A stretch of DNA of 33,617 bases, from positions 1 to 33,617 of the forward strand of contig JAFXVB010000020.1 in the NCBI GenBank assembly GCA_017534945.1. Direction: 5' to 3'. Below are positions 13,151 to 30,475 of this stretch, piece by piece. Each line of letters starts with the position of its first letter. The first letter of the stretch is position 1. A program made the translations under genes and the position numbers. The DNA is from Alphaproteobacteria bacterium (GTDB lineage: Bacteria; Pseudomonadota; Alphaproteobacteria; Rs-D84). The notes beneath the pieces were generated by a model, which was not told where the DNA came from, ran no database searches, and worked only from the letters and a program-made list of their open reading frames with translations.

Positions 13151-13151
13151 G

Positions 13152-13415: not shown

Positions 13416-13417
13416 TC

Positions 13418-13534
13418 GTGCTTTCCAAAATCACACACTGGTCGTTGTCAGAGATTCTGGAAATGACCGAAGAAGACTTTTATCAATGGCACGCATCAGC
13501 GGTCGCCATTCAAAAAGAAATAAATGGGGAATGA
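13418..13534 (+). CDS. E' (GpE-like extension domain, expressed by -1 frameshift)
   Basis: This stretch between E and the tape measure codes in the -1 frame for 38 residues from a GTG, including ITHWSLSEILEMTEEDFYQWHASA. That is the pattern of the small P2 GpE/E' family (a HWxxSE..xM...E...W core). It probably has no start of its own and is made only as the C-terminal part of the E+E' fusion, where it helps load the tube protein on the tape measure (family knowledge). The GTG at 13418 marks only the first codon after the E stop, not a proven start. Confidence 0.8.
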   Translation: MLSKITHWSLSEILEMTEEDFYQWHASAVAIQKEINGE

Positions 13535-13535
13535 T

Positions 13536-15773
13536 ATGGCTGTTCAAACGGCAGTTTCTGTTATTATTGGTGCAGAGTTAGGTGGCACATTCAGCGGTGC
13601 ATTTGCCTCTGGGCAAAAGCAGTTGGACACACTGGGGCGCAGCATAAAACAACTGAATACAACGTCAGAAAATGTTAATGCGTTCAAGGAACTTCGCCAA
13701 AGCACATTGCAGGCACGCCAGCAATGGACATCTGCCGAGGCCGAAGTAAAACGTCTGGCAAAAGAAATCCAGAACACTGACAGGCCAAGCAGGGAACTGA
13801 ATAACAGTTTTCGTAATGCCAAGAAAGATGCCGCAATTGCCAAATCTGCATATCAACAGAACAAGGCGGCACTACGGAAAATGTCCACGTCCTTGAAAGC
13901 GGCAGGCGTGGACACCAAGAACTTGACTCAGGAACAAAACAGATTGGGTCATGCTCTTGATATCCTGCGCCAAAGACAAACAGCATTGGCGGCGGTTGAA
14001 TCCAAACGTCAGGCGAACTTATCTAAGCGGTCAATGTATCGTTCCCAGATGATGGATGTTGTGGCACTGGGTACATCGTTATATGGATTGGTAAGACCTG
14101 CAGTCGCATTTGAAAGTGCGATGGCGGATGTTAAAAAAGTCGTGAACTTTGAAACACCGCAGCAGGTTCGTGAAATGGAAAACGACATCAAAAACCTGTC
14201 TAAACGCATACCGCTTGCGTTGGATGGGTTGGCACAGATTGTTGCAGCTGGGGGCCAGTTGGGTGTTCCACGTGAAAAGCTGACTGAATTTGCCGAGACA
14301 GCCGCAAAGATGTCGGTTGCATTCAGTATCACCGCTGACGAGGCCGGTCAATCAATGGCCAAGATGTCAAACGTCTTGCAAATGCCGATTGACCAGATGA
14401 GCAAGGTTGGCGATGTTATCAACCACATATCAAATAACATTGCAGCAACCGCACCGGAAATCGTAGAGGTTAATCTGCGTGCCGGTGCGATGGCAAAATC
14501 ATTTGGACTGGCATATAACGAAATATCCGCATTGGCTGGTACCTTTGTATCACTTGGTAAAACACCAGAAATCGCATCAACTGCTATCAACATGATGGCA
14601 TCACGATTGAAACTGATACCGGTGTCGTCCGGTGCAGCACGTGAGGCATTTGACCAACTGAATATTTCTATGGCGGAATATACAGAAATGGTTGAATCCG
14701 GCCGAGGCAAAGATGCATTGATGACGGTGCTTGAGGCACTGAAAAACGTTTCTGGGATCAAACGTTCCCAGATCATGAAAGAAATGTTCGGCGAACAAGC
14801 AACCAGACATTTGAATTCGTTGGTCGAGGGGTTGGATTCATTAAAATCAAACCTTAATCTGGTCGCAAACGAGGCAGACTATGCAAACAGTATGCACAAG
14901 GAATTTACAACCAGATCCGCCACCACAGAAAACAATCTGCAGTTGCTGAAAAACCAGATGGCGGTTCTTGCCACGAACATCGGTTCAACAATGTTGCCAA
15001 CCTTAAATACGTTGGTTGGTATATTTGGTCGTGCGGCTTCTAGTTTGGCGGACTTTGCGGAACGGCACCCGACACTGATCAAATACATCGGATTGGCGGT
15101 TGCCGGAATGATGTCGTTCCGGCTTTCTACATTTGCGTTGGGGTATGGATTCACGTTCATCAAGGGCGGAATCTTGTCGGTCATCAGCATATTCACAAGA
15201 ATGCGGACGGCATTCTCACTTATCCGGTTGGGCTTCACAAGTCTGATACCGATAATAAGATCCGTTGGTGCTGCGTTTGTCAGCAATCCTATCGGCCTGA
15301 TTATAACCGGTATCGCAGTCGGGGCAGCATTGATAATCAGGTATTGGAAACCGATATCTGCATTCTTCAGGCGGATATTTGAACCGGTCGTTCAGGTATT
15401 CAAGAACGTATGGGATTGGATAACGAGCATCTGGGAAAAAGCCAAGGACATATTCAGCGGAATCAAGGACTGGGTCAAGGATAGCTGGATCGGGAAAGCA
15501 TGGAACTGGGCATTCGGGGAAACACCGAAAAGCGAACCACCTGAAATCGGACGGACCGTTGTTGAAAATGTTGAAACAACACCGCCGGCCGAAATACCAC
15601 GTTCAACGGTTACCAGCACATCAACCCAGACTAATGTTTCTGTGAATGCACCGATAACGATAAATGCGTCTGAGGGGGCAACCGCAGAACAAATCGCACA
15701 AGAGGTATCCCGAGAATTGAACGCAAGGGAACAGGCAGCACAGCGAAGACAACGGAGTGTAAACTATGACTAA
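13536..15773 (+). CDS. Tail tape measure protein (P2 gpT / TP901 type)
   Basis: A 745-residue protein that sets tail length. ATG 13536 is preferred over the in-frame ATG four codons earlier because GGGGA sits just before it. Order of parts: coiled coils (about 20-180); the conserved TP901-type core FESAMADVKKVVNFETPQQV with LSKRIPLALDGLAQIVAAGGQLG and NLRAGAMAKSFGLAYNEISALAGTFVSLGKTPEIASTAINMM (about 200-360); hydrophobic likely membrane helices (about 520-620); and a soluble C-terminus with coil. Length is slightly under P2 gpT, predicting a short tail. Confidence 0.94.
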   Translation: MAVQTAVSVIIGAELGGTFSGAFASGQKQLDTLGRSIKQLNTTSENVNAFKELRQSTLQARQQWTSAEAEVKRLAKEIQNTDRPSRELNNSFRNAKKDAAIAKSAYQQNKAALRKMSTSLKAAGVDTKNLTQEQNRLGHALDILRQRQTALAAVESKRQANLSKRSMYRSQMMDVVALGTSLYGLVRPAVAFESAMADVKKVVNFETPQQVREMENDIKNLSKRIPLALDGLAQIVAAGGQLGVPREKLTEFAETAAKMSVAFSITADEAGQSMAKMSNVLQMPIDQMSKVGDVINHISNNIAATAPEIVEVNLRAGAMAKSFGLAYNEISALAGTFVSLGKTPEIASTAINMMASRLKLIPVSSGAAREAFDQLNISMAEYTEMVESGRGKDALMTVLEALKNVSGIKRSQIMKEMFGEQATRHLNSLVEGLDSLKSNLNLVANEADYANSMHKEFTTRSATTENNLQLLKNQMAVLATNIGSTMLPTLNTLVGIFGRAASSLADFAERHPTLIKYIGLAVAGMMSFRLSTFALGYGFTFIKGGILSVISIFTRMRTAFSLIRLGFTSLIPIIRSVGAAFVSNPIGLIITGIAVGAALIIRYWKPISAFFRRIFEPVVQVFKNVWDWITSIWEKAKDIFSGIKDWVKDSWIGKAWNWAFGETPKSEPPEIGRTVVENVETTPPAEIPRSTVTSTSTQTNVSVNAPITINASEGATAEQIAQEVSRELNAREQAAQRRQRSVNYD

Positions 15774-16209
15774 CCTGAATGCAGTTCTGGGCGTGAATAT
15801 GATGATGATACTGGGCAACTACCGGTTCAGCATTGATAGCGCAGCATATCAAACATTTGCACGATCCAGTGAATATCGCTGGGAAGAACTGAAACGGATT
15901 GGCAAAGAGTCCGCAATGCAATTCCTTGGTAATGGAACCGACACCATCACGTTAGAGGGTACAATTTATCCACAATATCGTGGTGGTATCGGTCAGATAG
16001 AACATATGCGATCCGAGGCCGGTCAAGGTATCCCGTTAATGCTGATAAGTGGAAATGGAACCGCATTTGGTCGCTGGTGCATTGTGTCGGTAACCGAACA
16101 TCAGGAAACATTTCTAAAAGATGGATCGCCACGCAAACTGACATTTTCAATCACACTGAAAAAGTATGGCGAAGAAAACCAAAACGGCAGTAAAGGAATT
16201 GTATCATGA
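15766..16209 (+). CDS. Tail protein U (P2 gpU-like)
   Basis: A 147-residue tail-tip protein. N-terminal MMMILGNYRFSID and SEYRWEELKRIGKESAMQFLGNGTDTITLEGTIYPQYRGG align by eye with P2 gpU (YRWPSNSRIGKRDAFQFLG, ITLAGVLYPELTGG). GSPRKLTFSITLKKY closes the domain. Overlaps the tape measure stop and the X start by a few bases. Confidence 0.92.
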   Translation: MTNLNAVLGVNMMMILGNYRFSIDSAAYQTFARSSEYRWEELKRIGKESAMQFLGNGTDTITLEGTIYPQYRGGIGQIEHMRSEAGQGIPLMLISGNGTAFGRWCIVSVTEHQETFLKDGSPRKLTFSITLKKYGEENQNGSKGIVS

Positions 16210-16406
16210 TCTATGTAACCAAGGACGGCGAAACACTGGACTATATCTGTTGGAAATACTATGGCAATTCACGAAATATGGAAAAAGTCCTGAATGCTAA
16301 CCGGCACATCGCCAGTATGGATGCGGTGCTGACTGCCGGAATCAAGATAACATTGCCGACATTCGAAGAACCCAAGGCAACCCAGAAAATCAAACTGTGG
16401 CAATAA
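16206..16406 (+). CDS. Tail protein X (LysM-like)
   Basis: A 66-residue protein of the P2 gpX family. It is a single LysM-like fold: DGETLDYICWKYYGNSRNMEKVLNANRHI, then LTAGIKITLPTF. In P2-like tails it lies at the tube tip near D and V. Overlaps U by four bases (ATGA), and D begins one base after its stop. Confidence 0.94.
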   Translation: MIYVTKDGETLDYICWKYYGNSRNMEKVLNANRHIASMDAVLTAGIKITLPTFEEPKATQKIKLWQ

Positions 16407-16407
16407 T

Positions 16408-17385
16408 ATGCGACCAAAGTATCAAATTTTTGCGAATAATTCGGACATAACACAAAAGATAAACGGCCGTCTGATATCGTTGGAAATATCGGACGAAATA
16501 GGACTTGTTTCCGACACGATGACCATTGAACTGGACAATCGTGATTTTGCGCTGGAAGTGCCATCACGTGGGGCAGAGATAGAAGTTTATCTTGGCTACG
16601 AGATGATGTATTCCATGGGGCGTTTTGTTGTCGATGAAATAGAGCTAAAATCGCCCCCAGAAACGATGATTATAACCGCCCGGGCCAGTGATTCATCACT
16701 GAACAATATCGCCGAAATAAAGGCCCCACAGACGTATTCTTGGGATAAAACAACAATCGGTGAAATCATAGACACGATTGCCGGCCGATATGGACTGACG
16801 GCAGCTGTTTCACAGACGTACCAAGACGTACTGGTCCAGCACATAGACCAGACCGAAGAAAGCGATTGTGCATTTATTCAGCGACTGGCCGAAGATTACA
16901 GTGCAACCATCAAGGTTGCTGGCGGTAAATTGCTGTTCTTGTTGCCACTGTCTGGCGAATTCCCAGACGGACGACCGATGCCATCTGTAACGATAAGCAA
17001 GGATTTACTGCGGTACAATTTCAAGATAACGGAACGTGGCAAATACGGATCAGTTGTGGCGAAATACTATGATTTTAACAACGCAGAAGAAAAACAAATA
17101 ACAGTCGGGGCAGGATCCCCGACTTTTACATTAAGGGATACATACACAAACGAAAAACTGGCCCAGTATCGTGCAAGACAAAAACTGATCGAAATACTGG
17201 CCGGAACAGAAAGTATGACATTGGAAATCGTAGGCAATCCGGTAATGACTGCCGAATGCGTTGTGAATCTATTCGGTGTGCCAAGTGATGCTGCCGGCAC
17301 GTGGATCGTCAGATCTGCCCGACACAGTCTTGGATCGTCCGGATATAAAACAACATTAGAACTGGCAAGGAGGCAGTCACTATGA
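16408..17385 (+). CDS. Tail/baseplate hub protein D
   Basis: A 325-residue homologue of P2 gpD, the gp27-like hub at the tube-spike junction. It has GRLISLEISDEIGLVSDTMTIELDN near the N-terminus, then EIEVYLGY, TIGEIIDTIAGRYGLTAAVS, and HIDQTEESDCAFIQRLAEDYSATIKV, all usual for the family. It ends the structural tail operon; the last four bases overlap the lysis block. Confidence 0.94.
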   Translation: MRPKYQIFANNSDITQKINGRLISLEISDEIGLVSDTMTIELDNRDFALEVPSRGAEIEVYLGYEMMYSMGRFVVDEIELKSPPETMIITARASDSSLNNIAEIKAPQTYSWDKTTIGEIIDTIAGRYGLTAAVSQTYQDVLVQHIDQTEESDCAFIQRLAEDYSATIKVAGGKLLFLLPLSGEFPDGRPMPSVTISKDLLRYNFKITERGKYGSVVAKYYDFNNAEEKQITVGAGSPTFTLRDTYTNEKLAQYRARQKLIEILAGTESMTLEIVGNPVMTAECVVNLFGVPSDAAGTWIVRSARHSLGSSGYKTTLELARRQSL

Positions 17386-17630
17386 GCAAACAAGAGCAAA
17401 AGGACGGATTCAGAGTAAAACTGGATAGTTCGCTTTTGTACTGTCTAGCCGCCGCACTGATTGGTTTCATAGTCAGGGTGGAATCGCACAGTGCGGCAAT
17501 AGACACCCGTTTATTACAACTGGAAAGGCGAACTGACACACTGGAGGTCGATTTGAAATCCATCAAGGATAGTTTGTATGAAATTAAAGGCGACATGAAG
17601 ATATTACTAAAGGGAATCAAAGATGATTAA
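17382..17630 (+). CDS. Small membrane protein with coiled coil, lysis block
   Basis: An 82-residue protein I cannot assign to a named family. Residues about 17-32 form one transmembrane helix (SSLLYCLAAALIGFIV). Residues 35-80 are an amphipathic helix with a coiled-coil heptad (TRLLQLERRTDTLEVDLKSIKDSLYEIKGDMKILLKGI). Haemolysin XhlA-type partners of holins have a similar coil-plus-helix plan in the reverse order, and i-spanins have this order. Since a clearer spanin pair lies downstream, this may be a holin partner or antiholin. It overlaps D and the holin-like gene. Confidence 0.6.
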   Translation: MSKQEQKDGFRVKLDSSLLYCLAAALIGFIVRVESHSAAIDTRLLQLERRTDTLEVDLKSIKDSLYEIKGDMKILLKGIKDD

Positions 17631-17826
17631 GAAAATACTGAAATACCTTTATGACCTGTTTAGCGACAGGGCAGGATATCCATCTGCAAAGAGATTTGCG
17701 TGTGCGATATTCGGGATAACTGCTGTGATATTGGCGTTTTGCCGTTACAGCGTGGACGTGGTTGCGGTCTTTGTGGCTGCGGCACTTGGCGAAAACATAG
17801 CAAGCGTATTCGAAAAGGATAAATGA
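17623..17826 (+). CDS. Putative holin
   Basis: A 67-residue protein with a charged start (MIKKILKYLYDLFSDRAGYPSAKR) and two hydrophobic stretches (FACAIFGITAVILAFC and VVAVFVAAALGENIASV), ending in EKDK. Small size, two membrane helices and position just before the lysozyme-like gene fit a phage holin that opens the inner membrane at lysis. Holins share little sequence, so this is inferred from form and context. Confidence 0.65.
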   Translation: MIKKILKYLYDLFSDRAGYPSAKRFACAIFGITAVILAFCRYSVDVVAVFVAAALGENIASVFEKDK

Positions 17827-18233
17827 TGAAAAAACAAGAACCTCGTGGAATCAGAAATAACAACCCAGGAAACATAAAATACACAGGAACAGCGTGGCTT
17901 GGATTGGCAAATCCACCACACGATGGAACCTTTTGTGTCTTTACTGATGCAAGGTTTGGTTTGCGTGCGTTGGCGAAAGTCCTTAGAAATTATAACAGAT
18001 ACTATGGTATCAGGACAATATACAGAATTATCAAACGGTTCGCACCGGCAAGTGAAAACCAAACAGATGCATACATCAAATCTGTGGCGGCCAGTACCGG
18101 ATACGATCCGCACAAACAACTGAACATCGAAGATGATAAGGTCCTGGTCAATTTAATGATGGCGATAATCAAACACGAAAACGGTAAACAACCATATTCG
18201 CCGGAAGAAATAAAGGCGGCAATCCAATGTTAA
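17826..18233 (+). CDS. Lysozyme-like muralytic enzyme (endolysin)
   Basis: A 135-residue protein. ATG 17826 is chosen over the adjacent ATG 17823 because AAGGA then has a six-base spacer. It begins EPRGIRNNNPGNIKYTG and continues DGTFCVFTDARFGLRALAKVLRNY, then IIKRFAPASENQTDAYIKSVAAS. This RGIRNNNPGNI...FxxxxxGLRAL...APxxENxTxxYI pattern is found in phage-encoded peptidoglycan hydrolases of lysozyme fold (family knowledge). No signal peptide, so export would depend on the holin. Sits between holin and spanins. Confidence 0.75.
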   Translation: MKKQEPRGIRNNNPGNIKYTGTAWLGLANPPHDGTFCVFTDARFGLRALAKVLRNYNRYYGIRTIYRIIKRFAPASENQTDAYIKSVAASTGYDPHKQLNIEDDKVLVNLMMAIIKHENGKQPYSPEEIKAAIQC

Positions 18234-19256: not shown

Positions 19257-19289
19257 TAAATTCTAGAAATAAAAAATCTATGAAAATAC

Positions 19290-19318
19290 TTGATAAATGG
19301 GAATAAATATATTAGCAT
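19290..19318 (+). promoter_or_regulatory. Candidate sigma70 promoter for the structured RNA and sugar operon
   Basis: TTGATA (19290-19295), a 17-base spacer, then TAGCAT (19313-19318). Transcription would begin near 19325, about 70 bases before the first strong hairpin, and read into the dead recombinase and sugar genes. The area is AT-rich, so chance matches are likely; spacing is the main support. Confidence 0.4.
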
Positions 19319-19394
19319 TACGACGTACAAAAATTATCAAAATTAAACCAACCTTTTTTCTTAACGGCTTTATATTTTGAGGTTTTTGAATTCT

Positions 19395-19530
19395 GTGCTG
19401 TCAAGGAACAAAGAGGTTGTAGAGTTTCTAAGTCCTATCACCAAATTTCTTGGCAGCATCAAACTTGGGAGGAGTGGTGCAACGGTAACGCCACCAGGAT
19501 TACGGTTTTCGTGATTGTTTGAGCTCCTCC
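19395..19530 (+). ncRNA. Structured RNA element (long hairpin plus three-way junction), family unknown
   Basis: The 307-base gap 19257-19563 has no convincing gene but folds strongly. Stem A: 14 continuous pairs between 19395-19408 and 19446-19459, with a small inner hairpin TAGA-GTT-TCTA (19420-19430). Then a three-way junction: closing stem B of 7 Watson-Crick pairs GGAGGAG (19468-19474) / CTCCTCC (19524-19530); arm C TGGTG / CACCA (19475-19479 / 19492-19496) with a nested CG-GTAA-CG; arm D ATTACG / CGTGAT (19499-19504 / 19510-19515). All non-Watson-Crick pairs (three in stem A, one in arm D) are G-T when read on the plus strand, that is G-U in RNA, which points to a plus-strand transcript. 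It may be a free RNA or the leader of the gene at 19564. I recognise no known family. Confidence 0.6.
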
Positions 19531-19563
19531 ACTTGAACAAAAGCCTAATGGCAAAGGAATTAT

Positions 19564-20136
19564 ATGGTATATGGAATGATTCTTCTTGAACACATAAAAT
19601 GGAAACCAACGGAACAACGTGTTGGAATACAAGCCTTTGCTAGAAAAAACGGATTAAAAATTGATCAGTTCCTTTCGTATTTCCCAAATCCTAATATTTT
19701 GAATATAAAATCAGGGGATACAGTCGTCTTTTATGATTGGAGTTGTATCTGCAATTCACGAAAATATTTGAATGTTTTTCTAGGACATCTTATCAATAAA
19801 CATGTATGCATTTATTCCGTCCAAAGCAAATATAACATTGATGAAAATACAAATTTTGACCAGTTAGTCAATGCATTTAATTTCTTTGAAGATATTCGTT
19901 TTCGTTTCCTATCAAATCAAAATACCAAAGTGGTTCAAAGTCGTATAGCTCAAGGACAACCCGCTGGCCGTCACAAAGGTAGTAAAAACAAGACACATGT
20001 TTGGGATGAGCATGAAGCCGAAATTCTTTTGATGCACGCAGATGGATTTAGCATGTATGCGATAGCCAAGAAAATGAACATAAATGCACCTGCGGTACGA
20101 CGCTGTTTGATTGCTAATAACATAAAGGATATATAA
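19564..20136 (+). CDS. Catalytically dead serine recombinase paralogue
   Basis: A 190-residue protein matching the recombinase at 18639 along its whole length. Both start MVYG; then GIQAFARKNGLKIDQFL parallels GIEAKAKSLNMHIDRYI, and SGDTVVF parallels TGDVLIC. RIAQGQPAGRHKGSKNKTH parallels RRANGKKLGRPIGCGNKSH, and the C-terminal helix-turn-helix (GFSMYAIAKKMNINAPAVRRCL) is kept. The active site is gone: Arg7 and Ser9 are Leu7 and Glu9, and ELSRLGR has become DWSCICN. The frame is intact, so it is probably a functional DNA-binding protein or regulator, not decay. AAAGGA lies six bases before the start. Its stop overlaps the first glycosyltransferase (TAATG). Confidence 0.82.
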   Translation: MVYGMILLEHIKWKPTEQRVGIQAFARKNGLKIDQFLSYFPNPNILNIKSGDTVVFYDWSCICNSRKYLNVFLGHLINKHVCIYSVQSKYNIDENTNFDQLVNAFNFFEDIRFRFLSNQNTKVVQSRIAQGQPAGRHKGSKNKTHVWDEHEAEILLMHADGFSMYAIAKKMNINAPAVRRCLIANNIKDI

Positions 20137-20999
20137 TGGTAAAGACCCCTCCAAAAGTCTCTATTTTAACACCAATTTATAATACAAATCCACAATACCT
20201 AAAAGAGTGTATGGAATCTATATTAAATCAAACATTTACAGACTTTGAGTTTCTTATTTTGAACGATAGTCCAGACAATAAAGAAATTGAAAAAATTGTT
20301 AAAGAATATGCGCGAAAAGATAATCGTGTTAAGTATTACAAGAATGAAAAGAATATGGGTATATCTCCGTCTCGTAACAAATTGCTAGATTTAGCTCAAG
20401 GAGAATATATAGCAATCTTTGACCATGATGATATATCTCTCCCAACACGACTTGAAAAAGAAGTTGTTTATTTGGATGCAAATCCAGAAATTGGTGTAGT
20501 TAGTGCCTTTATGCAATATTTTCAATGCAAAGATGAAGGATTTGTCAGAACCTGTCCGGAATACGACCATGAGATTAAATGTTCTTTTACGGATAATTGC
20601 TATTTTCCCCATACTGTTTCAATGATACGAAAGTCAGTTTTGGATGAAAATAACATAAGATATGAACAATATTTCAGTCCATGTGAAGATTACCAGTTGT
20701 GGAATCGTTTGATGGATAAAACGTTTTTTTACTGTATACAAGAAGTATTAGTAAAATACCGCGCTTTTGATGGAAATACAACTCATGCGCAAAAGGACCG
20801 TATGGACATAAACCATAATGCCATTAGTTTAGATATCCAGAATAGGTACCCAGCATATCATGAATACTGGTTAAGAAACAGTGGCAGATCTGGGACAAGG
20901 TTTAGGCTTAGACTAGGTTTTATTCCTTTATTAAAGGTGAAGAATAACAAAGTTTACCTGTTTGAATTCATTCCGGTATTTAAGGTTAAATGGAGATAA
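20136..20999 (+). CDS. Glycosyltransferase family 2 (GT-A fold)
   Basis: A 287-residue cytoplasmic or membrane-associated sugar transferase. The GT2 N-terminus is VSILTPIYNTNPQYLKECMESILNQT, followed by EFLILNDSPDN, NMGISPSRNKLLDLAQGEYIAIFDHDD (the last residues are the DxD-type metal site) and a C-terminal acceptor region. The end FIPVFKVKWR resembles membrane-associated tails in LPS transferases. It is coupled to the dead recombinase gene by a one-base overlap. Sugar and acceptor cannot be told from sequence. Confidence 0.93.
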   Translation: MVKTPPKVSILTPIYNTNPQYLKECMESILNQTFTDFEFLILNDSPDNKEIEKIVKEYARKDNRVKYYKNEKNMGISPSRNKLLDLAQGEYIAIFDHDDISLPTRLEKEVVYLDANPEIGVVSAFMQYFQCKDEGFVRTCPEYDHEIKCSFTDNCYFPHTVSMIRKSVLDENNIRYEQYFSPCEDYQLWNRLMDKTFFYCIQEVLVKYRAFDGNTTHAQKDRMDINHNAISLDIQNRYPAYHEYWLRNSGRSGTRFRLRLGFIPLLKVKNNKVYLFEFIPVFKVKWR

Positions 21000-21002: not shown

Positions 21003-22418
21003 ATGTCACAAATCAGCATTATTATTCCTGTATATAACGATGAAAAATACATCACTGAAACACTGGACAGTGTTATTGGACAAACATTTTCTGACTGGCA
21101 AGCCATTTGTATAAATGATGGCAGTACGGATAATTCATTAAAAATATTAAAACAATATGCAAAACGCGATAAACGCATACAAATAATAGACCAGAAAAAC
21201 GCCGGTGTCATTGTTGCACGCACGAATGGAATAAATAAGGCAAAATCTCCGTACATTTTCATGTTAGACGGGGATGACAAAATTGCGCCAACTACACTGG
21301 AAAAAATGTATCAAGCAATCACACACAGTCGTGGCGATATTATAACGTGTCGCGTGATGCAATTTGGTGAAGAAAATGGTGAAATGTTACTTCCTGCACC
21401 GAATAAATTAAATATGTCTAAAACGAATTGCTTGGTTAACGCGGCGTTGATGAGGAAGTCTGATTTTATTGCATGCGGTGGCTTCGATGAGCGTTTTTCT
21501 GCTATGATCGAAGATTATGATCTGTGGCTAAATTTGATATATAATTTCAATAAAAAAATCTACAGAATTCCAGAGATACTATTTTTCTATCGTATTAAAC
21601 CAAAAAATCTGTCACGAAATCAGCAAAAACGAAAAACGCATTATGATCTTTTAATGAATATACTATATCAAAAATACCCAATGCGTAAATGGCGCAGAAT
21701 TAAGAATGTTTTGCTGTATCCACAACGGATATTAAGGTTCTTTTTCAGAATACAAAATTATAAAGTTAAAATTCTTAAAATACCTGTTTATACAATCCGT
21801 AAATACGATACAGTTATATCTGTTGGTGCGGCGTGTTTTGTTCCAGATGTGTTAAAAGAATTGAAGTTACGCGATTTTTCGGGACCATTTGATTGGATGT
21901 ATGGGTCTAATGTTGTAATGCGGTTAAGTTTTATTAGAAACAGATTCAAGAATTACTTTGATTTTAATGATTTTGAATATGTTGGACCAAATCCAGATAA
22001 TGGGAAATCCGTGTATAAAAATAATCGTTCTGGTATTGTTTATAATCATGATTTTCCAACAGGAAATTTCAAGGATGTGTTCCCAGATGTAAAAGAAAAG
22101 TATAACCGCCGGATAAGACGCGTATTAAAGCATTTGAATTCCGATGAAAAGATTTTACTGGTGTATTCTGAATTAGGAAAAACTGGTGATAAAGATAAGC
22201 TTATACAGGTGATTAACGAAATAAATTCATCGTATAAGGCAAAGATAGATTTGCTTTATATAAACCATAACAAGTCTATTGAATTAAAGAAATATATCAA
22301 ACCAAAACGAATCTCAGAACATTTGATTTATGCAGAATATCACTATTCAAAATACCCCGATGAACTAGGTCAAGCAAGACGTATATGCAAGAAAATAGTA
22401 AAAAGGGTCGCCAAATGA
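21003..22418 (+). CDS. Glycosyltransferase family 2 fused to a DUF1796 domain
   Basis: A 471-residue two-domain protein. Residues 1 to about 210 are GT2: ISIIIPVYNDEKYITETLDSVIGQT, ICINDGSTDNS, and a FMLDGDDK metal site. A linker (about 215-265) leads to a second domain from about residue 270. That domain has DTVISVGAACFVPDVLKELKLRDFSGPFDWMYGS, IVYNHDFPTG, and EKILLVYSELGKTGDKDKL, the pattern of DUF1796, annotated in databases as papain-like cysteine peptidase-like. A Cys (ACF) and His (NHD) are kept in plausible catalytic places. The second domain may transfer or remove a group on the glycan rather than cut protein (inference). Confidence 0.85.
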   Translation: MSQISIIIPVYNDEKYITETLDSVIGQTFSDWQAICINDGSTDNSLKILKQYAKRDKRIQIIDQKNAGVIVARTNGINKAKSPYIFMLDGDDKIAPTTLEKMYQAITHSRGDIITCRVMQFGEENGEMLLPAPNKLNMSKTNCLVNAALMRKSDFIACGGFDERFSAMIEDYDLWLNLIYNFNKKIYRIPEILFFYRIKPKNLSRNQQKRKTHYDLLMNILYQKYPMRKWRRIKNVLLYPQRILRFFFRIQNYKVKILKIPVYTIRKYDTVISVGAACFVPDVLKELKLRDFSGPFDWMYGSNVVMRLSFIRNRFKNYFDFNDFEYVGPNPDNGKSVYKNNRSGIVYNHDFPTGNFKDVFPDVKEKYNRRIRRVLKHLNSDEKILLVYSELGKTGDKDKLIQVINEINSSYKAKIDLLYINHNKSIELKKYIKPKRISEHLIYAEYHYSKYPDELGQARRICKKIVKRVAK

Positions 22419-23491
22419 AAATATTATTTTTAATGAACCACATTATTATGGGCGGCTTGGAAAAGGTTTTGTTGCAATATTTGGACTCTATGCAAAAAGC
22501 CGGTGTAAATGTTACAGTTTTATCTTGTGAAAAAGTGACAGATCAATATTTTATTGATTTTTTCAGAACGCGAAAAATTGATTTAGAAATTCTTAATAAG
22601 CATAACGCGCATTTTTTCTTAAATAAAATAGTTTCTAAATATATGCGTAAAAGAAAATTGCGTCATATTATAGGGATGCATGACATAGTTATTGATTTTG
22701 CGAATTTTACGTTTTTTGAAGAATTAAAAAATATAAACAAGAAAAAAATCGGTTTTTGTCACGGCAGTATTTTATTCTTTAATTCACGTATTGATAAACG
22801 CGTGTTGGATATATATGACGATATTGTATGTTTATCCGATAATTTTACAACAGAATTTGTAAAATTATATCCTGGCTATAGAAATAAAATTCATCGTATT
22901 TACAATCCAATAAATGTCGATGAAGTTCGTAAATTGTCTAATGTTAAGGTATCTGTGAAAAAACCGTATTTTGTCGCGGTTCAACGTCTGGATTCTGTTG
23001 ATAAAGATGTGGCAACAATTATAAATGCCTTTAATATATTCTCAAAAAAACATCCAAAATATAATTTATACATAATTGGTGATGGACCTCAAATAGCGGA
23101 ATTGCGCCAAATGACGACGGGCAACAAACATGTTATTTTTACCGGCAAAATTGATAACCCATACCCGTTTATAAAAAATGCTGCGGCACTGATATTATCA
23201 TCAACATCAACCATCGGCGAAGGTCTACCAAACACATTGCTGGAAGCGCACGCACTTGGGACACTTGCGATATCCAGTGATGCGCCGTCTGGTCCACGTG
23301 AGATATTACTAAATGGTCGCGCAGGAATATTATTCGAACCAGGAAATGCACAAGATTTGGCGGTTAAGTTGGGCAAAATCGCAAACAAACAATATGCCAC
23401 GCATAAGATGATTGAATGTGCAGACAAAAATATAAATCGATTTGATGCAGATAAAAACCTGCATCAATTATTAAGTCTTATCAAAAAGTGA
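22415..23491 (+). CDS. Glycosyltransferase family 4 (GT-B fold)
   Basis: A 358-residue retaining transferase. ATG 22415 overlaps the previous stop (ATGA) and starts the typical MKILFLMNHIIMGGLEKVLLQYL; the ten residues open upstream do not fit the family. The C-terminal Rossmann domain has FVAVQRLDSVDKDVATIINAF, YNLYIIGDGPQIAEL and EGLPNTLLEAHALGTLAISSDAPSGPREIL, the usual nucleotide-sugar binding motifs with the Glu-x7-Glu pattern. Probably builds the same glycan as its neighbours. Confidence 0.93.
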   Translation: MKILFLMNHIIMGGLEKVLLQYLDSMQKAGVNVTVLSCEKVTDQYFIDFFRTRKIDLEILNKHNAHFFLNKIVSKYMRKRKLRHIIGMHDIVIDFANFTFFEELKNINKKKIGFCHGSILFFNSRIDKRVLDIYDDIVCLSDNFTTEFVKLYPGYRNKIHRIYNPINVDEVRKLSNVKVSVKKPYFVAVQRLDSVDKDVATIINAFNIFSKKHPKYNLYIIGDGPQIAELRQMTTGNKHVIFTGKIDNPYPFIKNAAALILSSTSTIGEGLPNTLLEAHALGTLAISSDAPSGPREILLNGRAGILFEPGNAQDLAVKLGKIANKQYATHKMIECADKNINRFDADKNLHQLLSLIKK

Positions 23492-23502
23492 GGGTAACGA
23501 TT

Positions 23503-23904
23503 ATGGTAAAGTATGATTTGCTGAATTTTCCTGTTCACGGCGACCATACCGGTTCGTTAGTTGCGCTTGAAAAGGGGGCGGATTTTCCCTTTGATATTAA
23601 AAGAGTCTACTATATATGGGGTACGGACAAAAATGCAGTTCGTGGTAAACATGCACATCGAAAATTAGAACAGGTTATTGTTTGTACATCTGGCTCATGC
23701 GATTTTATATTGGATGACGGTCAAGAACGTGTAGTTGTGCATTTGGATAATCCGACTGTAGGATTACATATCAAATCAAATATATGGCGTGAATTTACAA
23801 ATTTTTCGCATGATTGTGTTGTAATGGTTTTGGCATCTGAACATTATGATGAAGCTGATTACATTCGCGATTATCAAACATTTTTACAAGAGATTGCAAA
23901 ATGA
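23503..23904 (+). CDS. fdtA: FdtA/WxcM-like dTDP-4-keto-6-deoxyhexose 3,4-ketoisomerase
   Basis: A 133-residue cupin. ATG 23503 is preferred over a GTG fifteen bases earlier because GAGGG lies upstream at a normal distance. The double-stranded beta helix is clear: DFPFDIKRVYYIWGTD, RGKHAHRKLEQVIVCTSGSCDFILDDG with paired His50 and His52, and NPTVGLHIKSNIWREFTNFS. In known pathways FdtA or QdtA isomerises dTDP-4-keto-6-deoxyglucose to the 3-keto sugar (family knowledge). The aminotransferase at 28328 would use that product. Fuc3N versus Qui3N stereochemistry cannot be settled by eye. Confidence 0.85.
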   Translation: MVKYDLLNFPVHGDHTGSLVALEKGADFPFDIKRVYYIWGTDKNAVRGKHAHRKLEQVIVCTSGSCDFILDDGQERVVVHLDNPTVGLHIKSNIWREFTNFSHDCVVMVLASEHYDEADYIRDYQTFLQEIAK

Positions 23905-24851
23905 TAAAGATTGAAAAATACTCAAAAGATAAAAAGGCACAATGGGATAATTTTGTGAATACTTCTAAAACCCCGATGTTTATGTTTAATCGTGGTTTTA
24001 TGGAATATCATTCGGACAGGTTTATCGATAATTCACTATTGTTTTATAATGAAAAAAATGAATTGTTGGCCGTCTTGCCGGCGTCAATTCATGGGCAACA
24101 AATACGTTCACATGGTGGATTGACATATGGTGGATTTTTTGTAAATGATACGATGAAGCAGCACACAATGAACGATTGTGTTTCTGCATTGATTGAATAT
24201 TTGGATGCTAATAAAATAAATCACTTTATTTATAAATCTGTACCTAATATTTATAATATTTTACCGTCTGAAGAATACATGTGGCCATTGTGGCAGGCTG
24301 GATTCAGATTGGAACGCACAGATGTTTCATCAGTTATAGATTTACAAAACCAATTAAAAATGCCAAAGGGGCGCAAAGCGCAAATATCACGGGCCAAACG
24401 CGAAGATGTCGAAATTATTGAATCCGATGATTTTAATACATTTATTGATTTGGAAGATTCTGTTTTGTCCTTGCGGCATGGAGTTCGGGCGGTACATACT
24501 GGTGCGGAATTAAAGTTATTAAAATCAAGATTCCCTGAAAATATCAAATTGTTTATTGCAAAATATAAAGAACAAATGATAGCCGGAACTTTGTTGTTTA
24601 TTTATCCAAATGTTGTTCATACACAATATATGGCTGCAAATGAAATTGCACGCGAAATCGGTGGCCTTGATTTGTTAATCAAAACATTGATAGATAAATA
24701 TGCCGAATCAAAGAAATGGTTTGATTTTGGGATATCAACTGAACAAGGCGGTGAAGTATTTAATCCGGGGCTTTGTGCGCAAAAAGAAGGCTTTGGTGCA
24801 CGCACAATCGCATATAATTTCTATGAATGGAAACAAGGCAAAGGGAGATAA
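23901..24851 (+). CDS. FemAB/GNAT-type acyltransferase
   Basis: A 316-residue protein with two GNAT-like halves as in the FemAB and related families. There is an N-terminal FNRGFMEYHSDRF and LLAVLPASIHGQQIRSHGGLTYGGF, then GRKAQISRAKREDVEIIES. The C-terminal half has LFIAKYKEQMIAGTLLFIYPNVVHTQYMAAN and WFDFGISTEQGG. It sits next to the FdtA-like gene where many clusters carry a sugar N-acyltransferase, so N-acylation of the 3-amino sugar is a reasonable inference; transfer of an amino acid to the sugar is an alternative. It overlaps its left neighbour by four bases. Confidence 0.78.
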   Translation: MIKIEKYSKDKKAQWDNFVNTSKTPMFMFNRGFMEYHSDRFIDNSLLFYNEKNELLAVLPASIHGQQIRSHGGLTYGGFFVNDTMKQHTMNDCVSALIEYLDANKINHFIYKSVPNIYNILPSEEYMWPLWQAGFRLERTDVSSVIDLQNQLKMPKGRKAQISRAKREDVEIIESDDFNTFIDLEDSVLSLRHGVRAVHTGAELKLLKSRFPENIKLFIAKYKEQMIAGTLLFIYPNVVHTQYMAANEIAREIGGLDLLIKTLIDKYAESKKWFDFGISTEQGGEVFNPGLCAQKEGFGARTIAYNFYEWKQGKGR

Positions 24852-24854
24852 GGT

Positions 24855-26249
24855 ATGAAAGTAAATGCTTTCGATTTATTCCTTAGACAGAAAAGGTTTG
24901 ATTTAATCTTTAAGTATATTTATTTGAAAAACAAAGATAAAAACACACAGTTCTTTGAAAATTTATATGCGGAACATATTCGCGCATTTAACGGTTTTTA
25001 CGAAATCAACCCAAGTGATGGTATTCCAAAAAACACATGTGAAGATTTCATAAAATCTTTTGATGAATTATATGACAATATGTCAAAAAGAGGCTTTGAT
25101 AAAAAACATGGAATAATTCCAATTGGTGATAATGGTGAAATAAGCGATGGTGCACACCGTTTAACCTGTGCAGCTGTTTTGGGTTTAGATGTTGAATTGG
25201 AAGAAGACCACAGAAATGATTTATATGATTATAAATTCTTTCAAAATCAGGGTATAGACCCAGATATGGCAGATTATGCCGCATTAGAATATGTAAAATT
25301 AAACCCAAATGCATACATTGTAAATCTGCAAAGTATTATTGACACAAAATTTGATTCACAGGTAGAACAGATACTGGAAAAATATGGTTTTATATATTAC
25401 AAGAAAAATGTCAATATTACGTTTAATGGATTGGTAAATCTTAAAAAGTTATCTTATGGTTCGTTTTGGGATCGCGAATCATGGATAGGAACCGCAGAAA
25501 ATAGCTTTGCTGGTGCTGTATATCATGCAAATAATTCTTTTGGCAAAAACCCGATGCGAATATATGTTTTTGTTTGTGATAAATTGGCGGATGTTTTGGC
25601 GGCAAAATCTGAAATACGTGCTTTGTTTAATATTGGTAATTTTTGTGTGCATATAAATGATACTCGTGAAGAAGCAATTGCGTTGGCACAAACATATTTT
25701 AATAAAAATTCGTTGTATATGATAAATAAACGTCCATACCAATACGAAGACAATCATTTTGATAATATGGTTACGGAATTAAGGGATGCTACACATAATT
25801 ACGGCATTGATTTAAATGATGTTTGTGGTGGAGGAAGTACACCACTTGATGTTTTCGGTTTGCGGAAAAGTGATGACTTAGATTTCTTATATTGTGGAAA
25901 CAAAGACTTTAATATTCAAACTGAAACCTTGTCTAACCATGATACGGAATTGGTGTACTACCCGTATTCTAAACAAGAAATTATATTTAATCCAATGAAT
26001 CACTTATATTATCAAGGTGTTAAAATCATAACACTTGATATTTTGTTTGCCATGAAACAAAAACGTCACGAAATCCCGAAAGATGTTAATGATTGTAAAA
26101 TGATAAAGGCGTTTAAACGTGGTAAAAAATACCGTAAATCAAACTTCAAAATATTCCGTAAAATTCGGGACGGGCAAAAACGCACATTGGTATTCTTTAA
26201 TATTATCAAGATTCACTATACAAAAAGGGGGTGCAGGCATGGATTATAA
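24855..26249 (+). CDS. Polysaccharide-cluster protein with ParB-like and nucleotidyltransferase-like motifs
   Basis: A 464-residue protein without a clear family name. Near residues 88-110, IPIGDNGEISDGAHRLTCAAVLG resembles the DGxHRLxA motif of ParB/Srx-fold proteins that bind nucleotide. Near residues 322-345, CGGGSTPLDVFGLRKSDDLDFLYCG looks like the GS...D.D core of a nucleotidyltransferase-fold protein. The last 60 residues are very basic (KRGKKYRKSNFK). No signal peptide or membrane helix. Being inside an envelope-sugar operon suggests transfer of a phospho or nucleotidyl group to the glycan, but that is inference. It overlaps the next gene by eleven bases. Confidence 0.65.
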   Translation: MKVNAFDLFLRQKRFDLIFKYIYLKNKDKNTQFFENLYAEHIRAFNGFYEINPSDGIPKNTCEDFIKSFDELYDNMSKRGFDKKHGIIPIGDNGEISDGAHRLTCAAVLGLDVELEEDHRNDLYDYKFFQNQGIDPDMADYAALEYVKLNPNAYIVNLQSIIDTKFDSQVEQILEKYGFIYYKKNVNITFNGLVNLKKLSYGSFWDRESWIGTAENSFAGAVYHANNSFGKNPMRIYVFVCDKLADVLAAKSEIRALFNIGNFCVHINDTREEAIALAQTYFNKNSLYMINKRPYQYEDNHFDNMVTELRDATHNYGIDLNDVCGGGSTPLDVFGLRKSDDLDFLYCGNKDFNIQTETLSNHDTELVYYPYSKQEIIFNPMNHLYYQGVKIITLDILFAMKQKRHEIPKDVNDCKMIKAFKRGKKYRKSNFKIFRKIRDGQKRTLVFFNIIKIHYTKRGCRHGL

Positions 26250-27261
26250 ATTAACAATTATTATGTCTAATTATAACCAAGAGCAGTATATTGAAAAAGC
26301 AATAGAATCGGTCTTGGCACAAAAGACAAATTTTTATTGGCAACTGATAATCACTGATGATAATTCGGTCAAAGATAACAGTGTAGAAATAATAAAAAAA
26401 TATGCAGAAAAATATCCTGAAAAAATAGTCGCTCTTTTGAATAAAGAAAATGGGCGGTATTTGAAAAATGTACTTCGCGCCAAGGCGATAACCAAAACGC
26501 CTTATTTTACTTTGTTAGATGCTGATGATTATTGGACCGATGAAAACTATTTACAAAATGCGGTTGATTATTTGGATGCAAATCCAGATAAAGTAATTTA
26601 TGCACGTAATGTAGAATGTTTGGACGAATCTGGAAAAAAATGGTTGTTTATTCCCGAAAATACACCTGATGGTGATTTTACAATGGAAGATTATTTAAAT
26701 AACCGCATTGTTATTCCGCAAACTACGGGTGGGGTGTTTAGAAATGTTATTTTTGCACATGGTATTCCAAAAATTATGAGTGATGCAATTGGAACTGTTC
26801 ATGAACGTTCGTTTGAAGGTGATTTCGACAGATTTATTATGCATCTTAAATACGGTGGCGCACATTTTGAGAACAAGGCATCTGGGGTTTATCGTGTATT
26901 ATCTGCGGGAATTTGGTCCCGTATGAATACGTTTGAAAGACACGCTATTCAGGCACAAACATTGGTTGATTATGATGAATATTTTGAACATAAATATGCG
27001 AGATTCTTTATAAAATCTGCATGGAATGCACTGAATACCGCGATTGATTTTATTAAAGAAAAACATGAAAACATAACATTTTCCGTAGAATCACAAAATG
27101 CATTTTTTAATGCATTGACGGTATGTATGAAACATACAGATTTATTGCAGATGCCTGTGCAAGCGGAAAATGGACCAAAAAAACTTAAATATCGTGTTAT
27201 GCTGTGCATCCTTAGATATTGTCAAAAAAAATTGAAAAAGTATGGGGTAATTGAAAAATGA
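26239..27261 (+). CDS. Glycosyltransferase family 2
   Basis: A 340-residue GT-A transferase. ATG 26239 is used because LTIIMSNYNQEQYIEKAIESVLAQ begins right there after a G-rich ribosome site; a longer frame upstream lies inside the preceding gene. Motifs: LIITDDNSVKDNSVEII, AKAITKTPYFTLLDADDYW with a D-A-D-D metal site, and a family-like AGIWSRMN segment later. C-terminal region is helical and basic. Substrate unknown. Confidence 0.92.
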   Translation: MDYKLTIIMSNYNQEQYIEKAIESVLAQKTNFYWQLIITDDNSVKDNSVEIIKKYAEKYPEKIVALLNKENGRYLKNVLRAKAITKTPYFTLLDADDYWTDENYLQNAVDYLDANPDKVIYARNVECLDESGKKWLFIPENTPDGDFTMEDYLNNRIVIPQTTGGVFRNVIFAHGIPKIMSDAIGTVHERSFEGDFDRFIMHLKYGGAHFENKASGVYRVLSAGIWSRMNTFERHAIQAQTLVDYDEYFEHKYARFFIKSAWNALNTAIDFIKEKHENITFSVESQNAFFNALTVCMKHTDLLQMPVQAENGPKKLKYRVMLCILRYCQKKLKKYGVIEK

Positions 27262-28331
27262 AAAATCCAAGATTTTCGATAATTTGTCCGGCCTTTAATC
27301 ACGAACGCTATGTTGCATGGTTTATTGACAGTGTTTTGGCACAAACTGTTTCTGATTGGGAATTGGTCATTGTTGATGATTGCTCATCTGATAATACCGC
27401 GAAAATTATAAAATCTTATACCGATAAACGCATAAAGTTTATTCAACATAAAATAAATGGCGGGATAAATGCTGCGATAAATACTGGGGTTGAAAATTCA
27501 ACTGGCGAGATATGGATTATGGTTGCATCTGACGATGTTATGTGTTCGGATGCACTGGAAAAAATAGGGGCGGCATTTGATAAGAACCCAAACGCAGTTG
27601 CAGTGTATTGTAATCTGGATGTAATTGACGAGAATAATGAAGCGCGCACAGACATTGTCATGCCAGAATTAAAAAATCGTTCGCGCGCTTCATTTTTGCA
27701 CGATGCGTTTATGCACAATAACGTTCTTTATGGGCCAGGTATGTCAATGCGGGCAAAATATGCAAAGAAAATGTTTCCTGCAACACCAGCAAATTGCATA
27801 TTCCAAGATTATATTCAAAATGTTCAATTGTTGATAATGGGGGATGTTTTTGTTTTACCGGAAAAGGTTATAAAATATCGTATAACACATGACCAAAAAA
27901 ATATAAGTGCGGCGGGATTTTCTACAGAAATGCGCTGTAAATTAGAAACAGACAGTTTAATGGATGTTTTTCTTTCAATCGAAGATATAAATTTATTACA
28001 TGAAATATTCAGTGATGAAATTAAAAAAACAGGTATAAACATTAAAAATATACGTGATTTAAAATATTTTCTGGGGCGTATGGCATTGTTATCGTATGAT
28101 GATTCGCGAAAAATTTGGGGATTCCACCAGATAATGAATTGCTATAATACAGACAGGGCAAGATTATATAAAGAATATGGTTTTCAATTTCGTGATTTGG
28201 TTAAGTTGGTAAATTCCTTCCAGCCGTCTGAATATTCAAAAAAGTACAGAAAATATAAACGGCTTTTCAATTTAATGCTGATCTTATCTGCGCTGTTGTT
28301 GTTAACCAGTATAGTTGGGGTAATATTATGA
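27258..28331 (+). CDS. Glycosyltransferase family 2 with C-terminal membrane helix
   Basis: A 357-residue GT-A transferase: [42 protein letters not shown], and [11 protein letters not shown] with an acidic metal site. The last 22 residues form one hydrophobic helix ([19 protein letters not shown]) that would anchor it to the inner membrane where lipid-linked glycans are built. Overlaps both neighbours by four bases. Confidence 0.92.
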
Positions 28332-29413
28332 TTAAGTTTTTAGATCTTGAAAAAATAAATAACCGCTTTCGTAGTGAATTTGATGCCAGAATCAAAGATG
28401 TTCTAGATTCCGGATGGTATTTGTCAGGTAAATGGAATGATGAATTTGCGGCACATTTTGCTGAATTTTGTGGAACCAAACATGCGATTGGGGTTGCGAA
28501 TGGTTTGGATGCGATAAACCTGATTATTCGTGGCTATGGTTTTGGTCCGGGGGACGAAATTATTGTCCCAGCAAATACATATATTGCAACTATATTGGCA
28601 ATTTCTGAAAATGGTTGCACACCAGTATTGGTTGAACCTGATATAAATACTTACAACATAGCCCCCGAAAAAATAGAAGAAAAAATTACTCCGAGAACCA
28701 AAGCAATAATCGTAGTTCATTTGTATGGTCAGGCCGTTCAAATGAAAAAAATTTGGGAATTGGCAAAGAAATATAACCTGAAAATTATCGAAGATGCCGC
28801 CCAGGCACACGGTGCAATTTATGACGGGAACCGCGTTGGGAACCTGGGTGATGCGGCGGCATTTTCGTTTTATCCTGGTAAAAATCTGGGGGCGTTGGGC
28901 GATGCCGGTGGCATAACAACAAATGATACGGAATTATTTGAACGGGTTAAAGCAATAGCAAATTATGGTTCTGATTATAAATATCATCATATCTACAAGG
29001 GTGTAAATTCGCGTATGGATGAAATTCAGGCCGCTCTATTGGATATAAAGTTGCCATATTTGGATGCTGATAACGCCCGTCGTCGTAAAATTGCAAAGTT
29101 TTATTGTGAAAATATTACAAACCAAAAAATTCTTTTGCCAAAGACATATGATGAAAATGCACATGTGTGGCATGTATTTGCTATCAGATGTGAAATTCGT
29201 GATGAATTATGTAAATATCTGAATGATAATGGTGTACAGACAAACATTCACTATCCAACCCCACCACACAAACAGGGTGCATACAAAGAATGGAATAACC
29301 AATCTTTTCCAATTACAGAAGAAATTCATCACACAATAATGTCTTTGCCAATGTCACCAGTGATGACAGATGATGAAGTAAAACAAATTGTTGATTTGGT
29401 AAATAAATTTTAA
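28328..29413 (+). CDS. fdtB: FdtB/QdtB-like dTDP-3-keto-6-deoxyhexose aminotransferase (DegT/DnrJ/EryC1)
   Basis: A 361-residue PLP enzyme of the sugar aminotransferase family. Key signs: [59 protein letters not shown], and [18 protein letters not shown] with the PLP-binding Lys185. [16 protein letters not shown] and [11 protein letters not shown] follow. Together with the FdtA-like enzyme 5 kb upstream in the same operon it would make a dTDP-3-amino-3,6-dideoxyhexose (pathway knowledge). No rmlA or rmlB gene is in the window, so the dTDP-4-keto-6-deoxyglucose precursor must come from the host. Confidence 0.9.
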
Positions 29414-29442
29414 AAAAAGGTGGTTTCATACCACCTTTTTTT
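29412..29442. terminator. Bidirectional terminator between sugar operon and tail fibre
   Basis: A near-perfect inverted repeat AAAAAAAGGTGGT / ACCACCTTTTTTT with a five-base loop lies between the converging aminotransferase and fibre genes. It has a T run on either strand, so it can end both transcripts. It overlaps the last bases of both genes. Confidence 0.88.
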
Positions 29443-30355
29443 ATGCACAAAGTCCGCTTACCTGCCAACGCGCTCGTAATGATACCTCTTGTCCTGAACC
29501 GTATCTGCTGCTTAGCATAAATCCTGTTGTTGTTTTGCTGTTTCTCTTTGTAAAAACCCAACCCCATGCGTTGATAGAATCTGTTGGTTCGTTCATAGCA
29601 ATTATGTGATAATTTGTATCTGCCATTGTTATAGGCAATGTTATTATATTACTGTCTGATGAATTTGTAGAAACCAATCCACCCATTTCAACCCAGCCAG
29701 ATTTGTATTTACGATACCATGTGTAATTGTTTTCCACAGTTGGAAATTGTGATTCAACAACATAATCTAGCAAATTTTCGGTTTTACTGATTTGCAGATT
29801 TAAAGACGAAATTATTTCAGATATTGTAGCAGTTATAGATTCAATTGTTGATTGGATAATAGAAATTACCTCTTGCATGCCGGGAACCTGTTCAAGGATC
29901 TCTAGCTGCTCAGCGAAAGTTGTAATATCTTTATTAAACAGATCAATTTTTTCTAATAATGTATCTATACCTTCCTTATTTGTAATGTCTTTGTACTTGT
30001 TGCGAAGATCGTCTACATCGTCTTTTAAATCTTTCAACAATTCCATTGTGTTATTCATGTCCAAATTTAAGTCCATAGGGGATATTTTTGCAGTTGGCTG
30101 AAAATCAACAGGCCGCTCATAAGGCAAATGACGTTCTATGGTTATTGATTGGAACATTTTTAATGGTTTTACAAATACGATACGGCCTGATGAAAATGGA
30201 AAATCAGGATTTAGACCGCCTTTTACCCCGATAACATTGTATGCCGGAGCCGTTTTCCCATCAACAGTAACAACTATGTTGCTCTTTTCTATGTATGGAA
30301 AATTAAAATAAAAAGTCTGTGTTTCACCACTGTATATGTATGTAACTCTTTGCAT
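29441..30355 (-). CDS. T7-type tail fibre protein, minus strand
   Basis: A 304-residue fibre facing the late operon. The start is set at 30355 because MQRVTYIYSGETQTFYFNFPYIEKSN is the typical T7 gp17-like attachment domain and AGGA lies seven bases upstream; forty further open codons upstream run through the leader and do not fit. After SSGRIVFVKPLKMFQSITIERHLPYERPVDF comes a coiled-coil stalk (about 85-190), then a compact C-terminal tip ending LRARWQVSGLCA. It sits far from the other tail genes and next to the sugar cluster. Confidence 0.85.
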   Translation of the reverse strand: MQRVTYIYSGETQTFYFNFPYIEKSNIVVTVDGKTAPAYNVIGVKGGLNPDFPFSSGRIVFVKPLKMFQSITIERHLPYERPVDFQPTAKISPMDLNLDMNNTMELLKDLKDDVDDLRNKYKDITNKEGIDTLLEKIDLFNKDITTFAEQLEILEQVPGMQEVISIIQSTIESITATISEIISSLNLQISKTENLLDYVVESQFPTVENNYTWYRKYKSGWVEMGGLVSTNSSDSNIITLPITMADTNYHIIAMNEPTDSINAWGWVFTKRNSKTTTGFMLSSRYGSGQEVSLRARWQVSGLCA

Positions 30356-30373
30356 ATTTAAGTCCTTTTTTAG

Positions 30374-30403
30374 ATAAAAAAATCCCCGGTGTGAAGCCGG
30401 GGC
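30374..30403 (-). terminator. Rho-independent terminator in the leader of the fibre gene
   Basis: On the minus strand CCCCGG-CTTCACA-CCGGGG is followed by ATTTTTTT. It lies after the FRG gene and before the fibre gene, and also just after a strong minus-strand promoter. It can both end the FRG transcript and stop the fibre leader early. Confidence 0.85.
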
Positions 30404-30414
30404 AGAATAAATTA

Positions 30415-30437
30415 AAATTGGCACCACTTGCCAATTT
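30415..30437 (-). repeat. Perfect 8-bp inverted repeat at the 5' end of the fibre leader RNA
   Basis: AAATTGGC and GCCAATTT flank a seven-base loop, about four bases after the expected transcription start of the minus-strand promoter. It would form a 5' hairpin in the RNA or act as a repressor site in DNA. Confidence 0.7.
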
Positions 30438-30446
30438 GATAAAAAG

Positions 30447-30475
30447 ATTATAACATAAAATGACGAAAAATTCAA
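30447..30475 (-). promoter_or_regulatory. Strong sigma70-type promoter, minus strand
   Basis: Read on the minus strand: TTGAAT (30475-30470), a 17-base spacer, and a perfect TATAAT (30452-30447). Transcription should begin near 30440, go through the 8-bp hairpin and then the terminator before reaching the fibre gene. Confidence 0.75.

Follow-up and report, generated by a model that had tools for sequence, protein, structure and literature searches.

Among the closest known systems to the protein studied here is the Mpi master DNA invertase (NF009949 / PRK13413), with which it shares the sequence family, the linker and the helix-turn-helix. In PMC12632263, an Mpi-type invertase is tied to invertible promoters of Bacteroides surface polysaccharides. 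PMC7315117 and PMC12632263 describe Bacteroides capsule loci with invertible promoters that are flipped by a global invertase, the first genes often being upxY and upxZ. It is in this genus that phase-variable surface polysaccharides are best known; their expression is coordinated there by NusG-like and UpxZ proteins, the products of genes at the head of the operon. A reduced-genome alphaproteobacterial lineage from animal guts seems to have arrived at a comparable arrangement by using another component, an invertase retired from catalysis. Like upxY and upxZ, the gene for this protein (here called the dead gene, and its product the dead protein) seems to be a regulator gene that heads a phase-variable polysaccharide operon. 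The Upx proteins act on transcription antitermination; the dead protein, by contrast, is related to recombinases and has a helix-turn-helix, and neither its Pfam matches up to E=10 nor its NCBIfam matches up to E=1 include a NusG-like or UpxZ family.

Two further systems are comparable. The Tn3 and gamma-delta resolvases, which act at res, have the resolvase fold in common with the dead protein; they are catalytically active and the dead clade is not. It is established that a recombinase can repress transcription by occupying its crossover site within a promoter, as in the autorepression by Tn3 and gamma-delta resolvase. The TldR proteins are nuclease-dead relatives of TnpB, from which they originated, that have turned into transcription factors; unlike the dead protein they are RNA-guided, and their fold is unrelated. 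They provide a parallel in that, as PMC13418256 describes, an enzyme from a mobile element gave up catalysis but still targets DNA. A review on recruited mobile-element genes, searched by terms, discusses live invertases, and a literature search covering few subscription journals listed no paper on inactivated serine recombinases regulating phase variation. In an Enterousia paper (PMC12306168), a word search found neither recombinase nor polysaccharide.

The locus described below lies in a stretch of 33,617 nt that was analysed as a whole and is called the window (Table 1). The reading that we favour, and that we judge to be evenly poised between right and wrong, is that an inactivated invertase has been kept as a DNA-binding regulator that heads surface-polysaccharide operons, mostly behind an invertible-looking promoter.

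Table 1. Features around the dead gene in the window
Feature	Position	Strand	Evidence and remarks
Mpi-like serine recombinase (DNA invertase family) with its full set of catalytic residues	18639..19256	+	NF009949 258.9 bits, E=3e-77; PHROG 'DNA invertase' E=3e-45; R7, S9, R51, E70, R73, R76
Promoter-like TTGATA-N17-TAGCAT aimed at the dead gene	19290..19318	+	TTGATA at 19290, TAGCAT at 19313; read directly
Half-site AAACCAACC	19345..19353	+	Resembles crossover-like AAACCAACG of related invertible-looking promoters
Catalytically dead serine-recombinase-like protein	19564..20136	+	Resolvase fold, GR linker, helix-turn-helix; first gene of the operon
Family 2 glycosyltransferase	20136..20999	+	Pfam PF00535 8.7e-31; start codon overlaps the stop of the dead gene
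Remaining polysaccharide operon: GT2, GT1, FdtA, GNAT-like, unknown, GT2, GT2, DegT aminotransferase	21003..29413	+	Pfam matches, ORFs
Weakly tail-fibre-like gene, convergent with the operon at its far end	29441..30475	-	PHROG 6518 E=8e-4; ORF lists

Catalytic positions and predicted fold

The dead gene is an open frame with a product of 190 amino acids. By BLASTP the protein aligns with that of its upstream neighbour, which looks live by its residues, over 190 columns with 25% identity (E=1e-18), from MVYG through the helix-turn-helix. A sequence-only reading of this DNA had pointed to the intact frame, to the MVYG start and C-terminal helix-turn-helix that both proteins have in common, to the replacement of R7 by L and of S9 by E, and to the loss of the arginines of ELSRLGR. 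The alignment agrees on each point; the last stretch reads DWSCICN in the dead protein. That the protein is full length holds for its extent from MVYG to the helix-turn-helix, but about 12 residues including R51 are missing. Its description as a paralogue of the neighbour is likewise right as to homology and too simple as to descent, the dead proteins being a separate clade (see below).

For the comparison of residues, 39 active and 10 dead sequences were aligned after dropping a duplicate active protein (L095). R7, S9, R51, E70, S72, R73 and R76 each occur in 39/39 active relatives. The positions R7, S9, R51, E70, R73 and R76, which we take to be the catalytic ones of the resolvase family, consistent with how gamma-delta resolvase and Gin align, are retained in none of the dead sequences that cover them. 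The loss thus spans the whole set of catalytic positions, beyond the two noted first. At R51, all 39 active sequences have arginine and all 10 dead ones a gap. The alignment restores no catalytic serine elsewhere, and none of the nine dead sequences covering position 9 has a serine there. The dead sequences have constant residues of their own: W71, C73, F127 and S129 in 10/10, R124 in nine of ten and H10 in eight of the nine that cover it. The linker had been described as kept, and its GR is indeed found in 49/49 aligned sequences, active and dead. One homologue (G155) carries a second helix-turn-helix in tandem.

The window protein stays under the cut-off of the Pfam Resolvase family (E=0.033). 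With the Mpi model NF009949 it gives 57.8 bits (E=1.2e-15) against a curated cut-off of 272 bits, a value above the 258.9 bits of the live neighbour as well; it further differs from the Mpi family in lacking the catalytic residues and in being encoded by the first gene of the controlled operon. The fold predicted by AlphaFold2 from seven alignment rows, one of which is the live neighbour, has a pLDDT of 86.2 and a pTM of 0.59, and the model consists of the resolvase strands and helices, a long helix (32 residues) and a C-terminal domain with three helices. Its best Foldseek match is 5cy1 (E=9.4e-7), the top matches being Tn3 / gamma-delta resolvase on DNA at E of about 1e-6, and VIA-align superimposes it on 3bvp_A with Z 12.0 and an rmsd of 3.1 over 116 aligned residues. 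When the dead profile was run against the sequences of solved structures, only weak matches emerged (2r0q, E=0.027). The dead protein of the window is thus devoid of the catalytic residues of serine recombinases and is predicted to have the resolvase fold and a C-terminal helix-turn-helix.

Position at the head of polysaccharide operons

Eleven dead loci were chosen for examination because they carry the dead gene. In 11/11 the first same-strand gene that follows is related to surface polysaccharides (8 GT2, 1 GT1, 1 RgpF and 1 FdtA). The spacing between the two genes ranges from an overlap of 8 nt to a gap of 20 nt in 10 loci, and is 10 nt in C46. The convergent gene that closes off the window operon encodes a phage tail-fibre-like N terminus, and genes with similar N termini lie near operon ends in G015, G153 and C46 (L031, L034 and L071 among the loci). 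Live paralogues also precede glycosyltransferase-like genes, named by eye from sequence, in L009-L011, L013, L014 and L018; in L009 the glycosyltransferase behind the live enzyme closely resembles one found behind a dead gene.

Invertible-looking promoters

The promoters of seven of the 11 loci were compared (G013, G015, G139, C30, G153, G101 and G155); the window, G111, G019 and G104 were left out because the motif is absent from them. In the seven, CGTTGGTTTG(T/C)(T/G)TTATA lies upstream of the dead gene, with an inverted partner about 130 bp further upstream. This left site is AAACCAACG in G013, G015 and G139, and in C30, G153, G101 and G155 a degenerate AGAACGAT or AGAACATT with a short common core only. 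In the 156 genomes of the genus, the exact pattern AACCAACG-N100..130-CGTTGGTTTG has four matches, in three genomes, three of them directly before a dead gene; the reversed pattern, searched as a control, has two.

In all seven loci a -35-like box lies inside the segment bounded by the sites and a -10-like box outside it, 17 bp apart, with the crossover-like site in between. The -35 end (ATGTTGATT or similar) is directed toward the operon in G013, G153, G155 and C30 and away from it in G015, G139 and G101, so that both orientations occur, across species and not within one strain. This mix is the best of the 64 possible assignments (0.635), with 'all same way' ranking 56th (0.444), and the gain was matched in 0/500 letter shuffles, a null that ignores relatedness. 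The difference in -35 scores is modest, at 4-5 of 6 positions in the facing loci versus 3-4 in those facing away. A segment with its -35 end toward the operon in four loci and in the opposite direction in three bears the mark of an invertible promoter, and this between-species comparison suggests that promoter inversion may take place at dead loci. G104 has a different inverted-repeat pair around a promoter-like stretch.

The window itself has TTGATA-N17-TAGCAT, which we take to be promoter-like from the consensus; a similar sequence lies upstream of the G111 dead gene. For the half-site at 19345-19353 no convincing inverted partner was found in the window. An imperfect TTGGTT/AACCAA pairing was seen by eye, with one half where the live gene ends and the other at 19345, and was discounted as too weak, leaving no clean inverted pair around the promoter. 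The window promoter seems to be fixed, and the switch is proposed for the family and not for the window copy. The leader at 19257-19563 contains no tRNA according to ARAGORN and gave no Rfam match up to E=1. Against the DNA of its own genome it matched itself and two chance-level stretches of 17-22 bp, around which ARAGORN was negative as well. Within it, GGGAGGAG...CTCCTCC at 19467-19530 encloses an inner hairpin and has a tRNA-like look, with no ARAGORN or Rfam call; the stretch that holds this feature is seemingly missing from the otherwise similar G111 leader.

Paired sites are found elsewhere in the genus. G006 (L106-L113) has eight copies of a 30-bp quasi-palindromic pair, CTATAAAACAAAC-CAAC-GTTTGTTTTATAG and its inverse, 97 bp apart. 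The promoters with these paired sites stand before paralogous surface-protein-like operons and, judged by eye, are in one orientation in 8/8 cases, so inversion is unsupported there. In G145 and G186 the right-hand site precedes an autotransporter-like gene, named by eye. Inverted repeats of 14-16 bp around CGGTGGTTA lie immediately 3' of live type-A recombinases in L014, L018 and L062 and are candidates for a second kind of invertible promoter. Beside many other live recombinases, inverted repeats occur at chance level.

Proposed role of the dead protein

By these comparisons, the operon position and the site anatomy, the dead protein is probably a regulator built into an on/off switch of the bacterial surface. 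The segment inverted by live recombinases would be about 126-141 bp long and would include the -35 box, with the -10 box staying outside, and the dead protein would be made when the promoter faces the operon. Because it has retained dimer helix, GR linker and helix-turn-helix, the protein most likely recognises the sites of its live relatives or similar ones. The candidate targets are GTTTGTTTTATA-type sites and the promoter of its own operon, and the site predicted in this model is CGTTGGTTTGTTTTATA. Having no chemistry, the protein would occupy such a site and do nothing more. Occupation between the -35 and -10 boxes would cover the promoter and give autorepression. The live recombinase may be kept out or poisoned by the bound protein, so that expression would be damped and the segment would flip back more slowly. 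As the dead gene comes first in its operon, its product would be made in the ON phase, and would thereby feed back negatively on expression and hold flipping in check. The protein may act likewise on sister operons; the presence of two such operons in its own genome makes cross-control possible. We infer regulation in one of these forms, that is autorepression, a block of inversion or control across loci. If the dead protein binds the crossover site, the orientation of the switch and its expression would be linked by feedback in one protein. As a more specific and tentative proposal, which we regard as rather doubtful, the switch could be self-locking: with an inactive version of the promoter-flipping invertase encoded first, the ON state would itself supply an inhibitor both of flipping and of over-expression, and several such operons in one cell would exclude one another through common sites.

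The strongest alternative is a plain transcription factor, for which the resolvase fold is a dimerisation scaffold only and which would activate or repress its operon through an operator of its own, with no role in inversion. The fixed appearance of the window and G111 promoters, without an inverted pair, would agree with this, as would G019, in which neither site type was found, and the strongly conserved helix-turn-helix with its duplication in G155. The recombinase-like site inside the promoter in 7/11 loci and the derivation of the dead family from invertases speak against it, and on balance we find this alternative unlikely.

Association with live recombinases

A live-type recombinase is encoded immediately upstream of the dead gene in 6/11 loci, in the same direction in the window and G104 and divergently in C30, G101, G155 and G153; in the other five, none is present within the fetched stretch. 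The pairing with an adjacent active enzyme that was noted for the window is therefore a property of about half of the loci. Where the live enzyme is adjacent, and given the long E helix that is kept in the model, the dead protein could be a dominant-negative or regulatory partner that forms a heterodimer with the live recombinase and not a homodimer bound to DNA. The five loci that have no such neighbour speak against this. The dimer-helix residues R124, F125 and F127 have diverged, yet are fairly uniform within the dead clade, which suggests homodimers. We regard such a role as partner as improbable.

Clade, selection and distribution

In a tree of 50 rows, a single branch with support of 100/100 separates the dead proteins, which we read as one old clade, from all others, and a dead/active split as low as that observed was reached in 0/500 label shuffles. 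For this tree the dead proteins were cut to 195 residues and the active ones to 215, G111 and C30 were omitted, one active protein was entered twice (actA_L095 and actB_L095), and the root serves for drawing only. The tree rules out a recent duplication of the upstream neighbour. In the favoured explanation, an Mpi-type invertase would have lost its catalytic residues once, either in the genus or in an ancestor of it.

The selection count used 10 rows, with G111 cut to 81 codons and C30/C46 left out, and gave pN<pS in 45/45 pairs of dead genes. The comparison of dN/dS across homologues that the sequence-only reading had proposed gives 0.10, 0.24, 0.21 and 0.10 in the four closest pairs, at dS values of 1.0-3.3, which are near saturation. 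By these codon comparisons the dead protein is under purifying selection. A decaying relic, carried as a translational leader for the glycosyltransferase gene, could explain the one truncated copy (G111) and one in-frame fusion: in L118 (G139:C24, 192-1481, minus strand) about 30 initial codons of a dead gene run on into the frame of a glycosyltransferase-like gene, which gives the impression that the promoter-proximal part was transferred to another operon. The homologues are not mostly broken, with nine full-length uninterrupted copies, and the dead clade has acquired new invariant residues. Decay is rejected because of purifying selection together with the single clade, and we consider the relic very improbable. 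That the protein is selected in a non-catalytic form, as had been suggested at the outset, is supported by these findings, along with the fixed replacement residues, the kept GR linker and the tandem helix-turn-helix of G155.

Of 201 genomes of the order searched with a profile, 10 have dead-type genes, nine of them at 250 bits or more and the tenth in the form of the truncated G111 copy; the next score below the dead-type matches, 128.6 bits, belongs to a live-type recombinase. All carriers are in one genus, Candidatus Enterousia, and the records of the six loci that were looked up name, among others, Candidatus Enterousia onthequi and metagenome bins from the gut of horse and goat. Of the genomes of the genus that have live recombinases, most are without the dead protein in this search. 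The genome of the window itself seemingly has two dead copies, that of the window and one split across the contig ends C30 and C46, which were taken as halves of one gene by inference. A class-wide search of 385 genomes at a threshold of 1e-30, in a sample with few members of the genus, found dead members in this same genome only.

Relation to the prophage

A contractile-tail prophage with terminase, portal, sheath, tape measure and endolysin genes occupies 30-18233 of the window and adjoins the recombinase pair. The initial reading had set the pair in a prophage frame, which did not hold up: phage genes adjoin the window copy, whereas the recurring partner is a surface-polysaccharide operon. 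That the protein is a prophage-encoded regulator of the adjoining phage, as the phage genes just upstream might suggest, is scarcely credible and as a general role is refuted by the polysaccharide operon in 11/11 loci, the other loci lying in polysaccharide islands, several beside housekeeping-like genes, while a viral contig scan found no relative of the dead protein and the phage-record match examined is a live recombinase.

Other live recombinases of the genus

In L002, L022 and L023 a live Mpi-like recombinase is encoded directly upstream of DNA methyltransferase-like genes, named by eye, which suggests phase-variable modification systems in the same genus. Several contigs, in G010, G039, G057 and other genomes, break off tens of bases or less from a live recombinase gene, which would fit variable or repeated DNA next to it.
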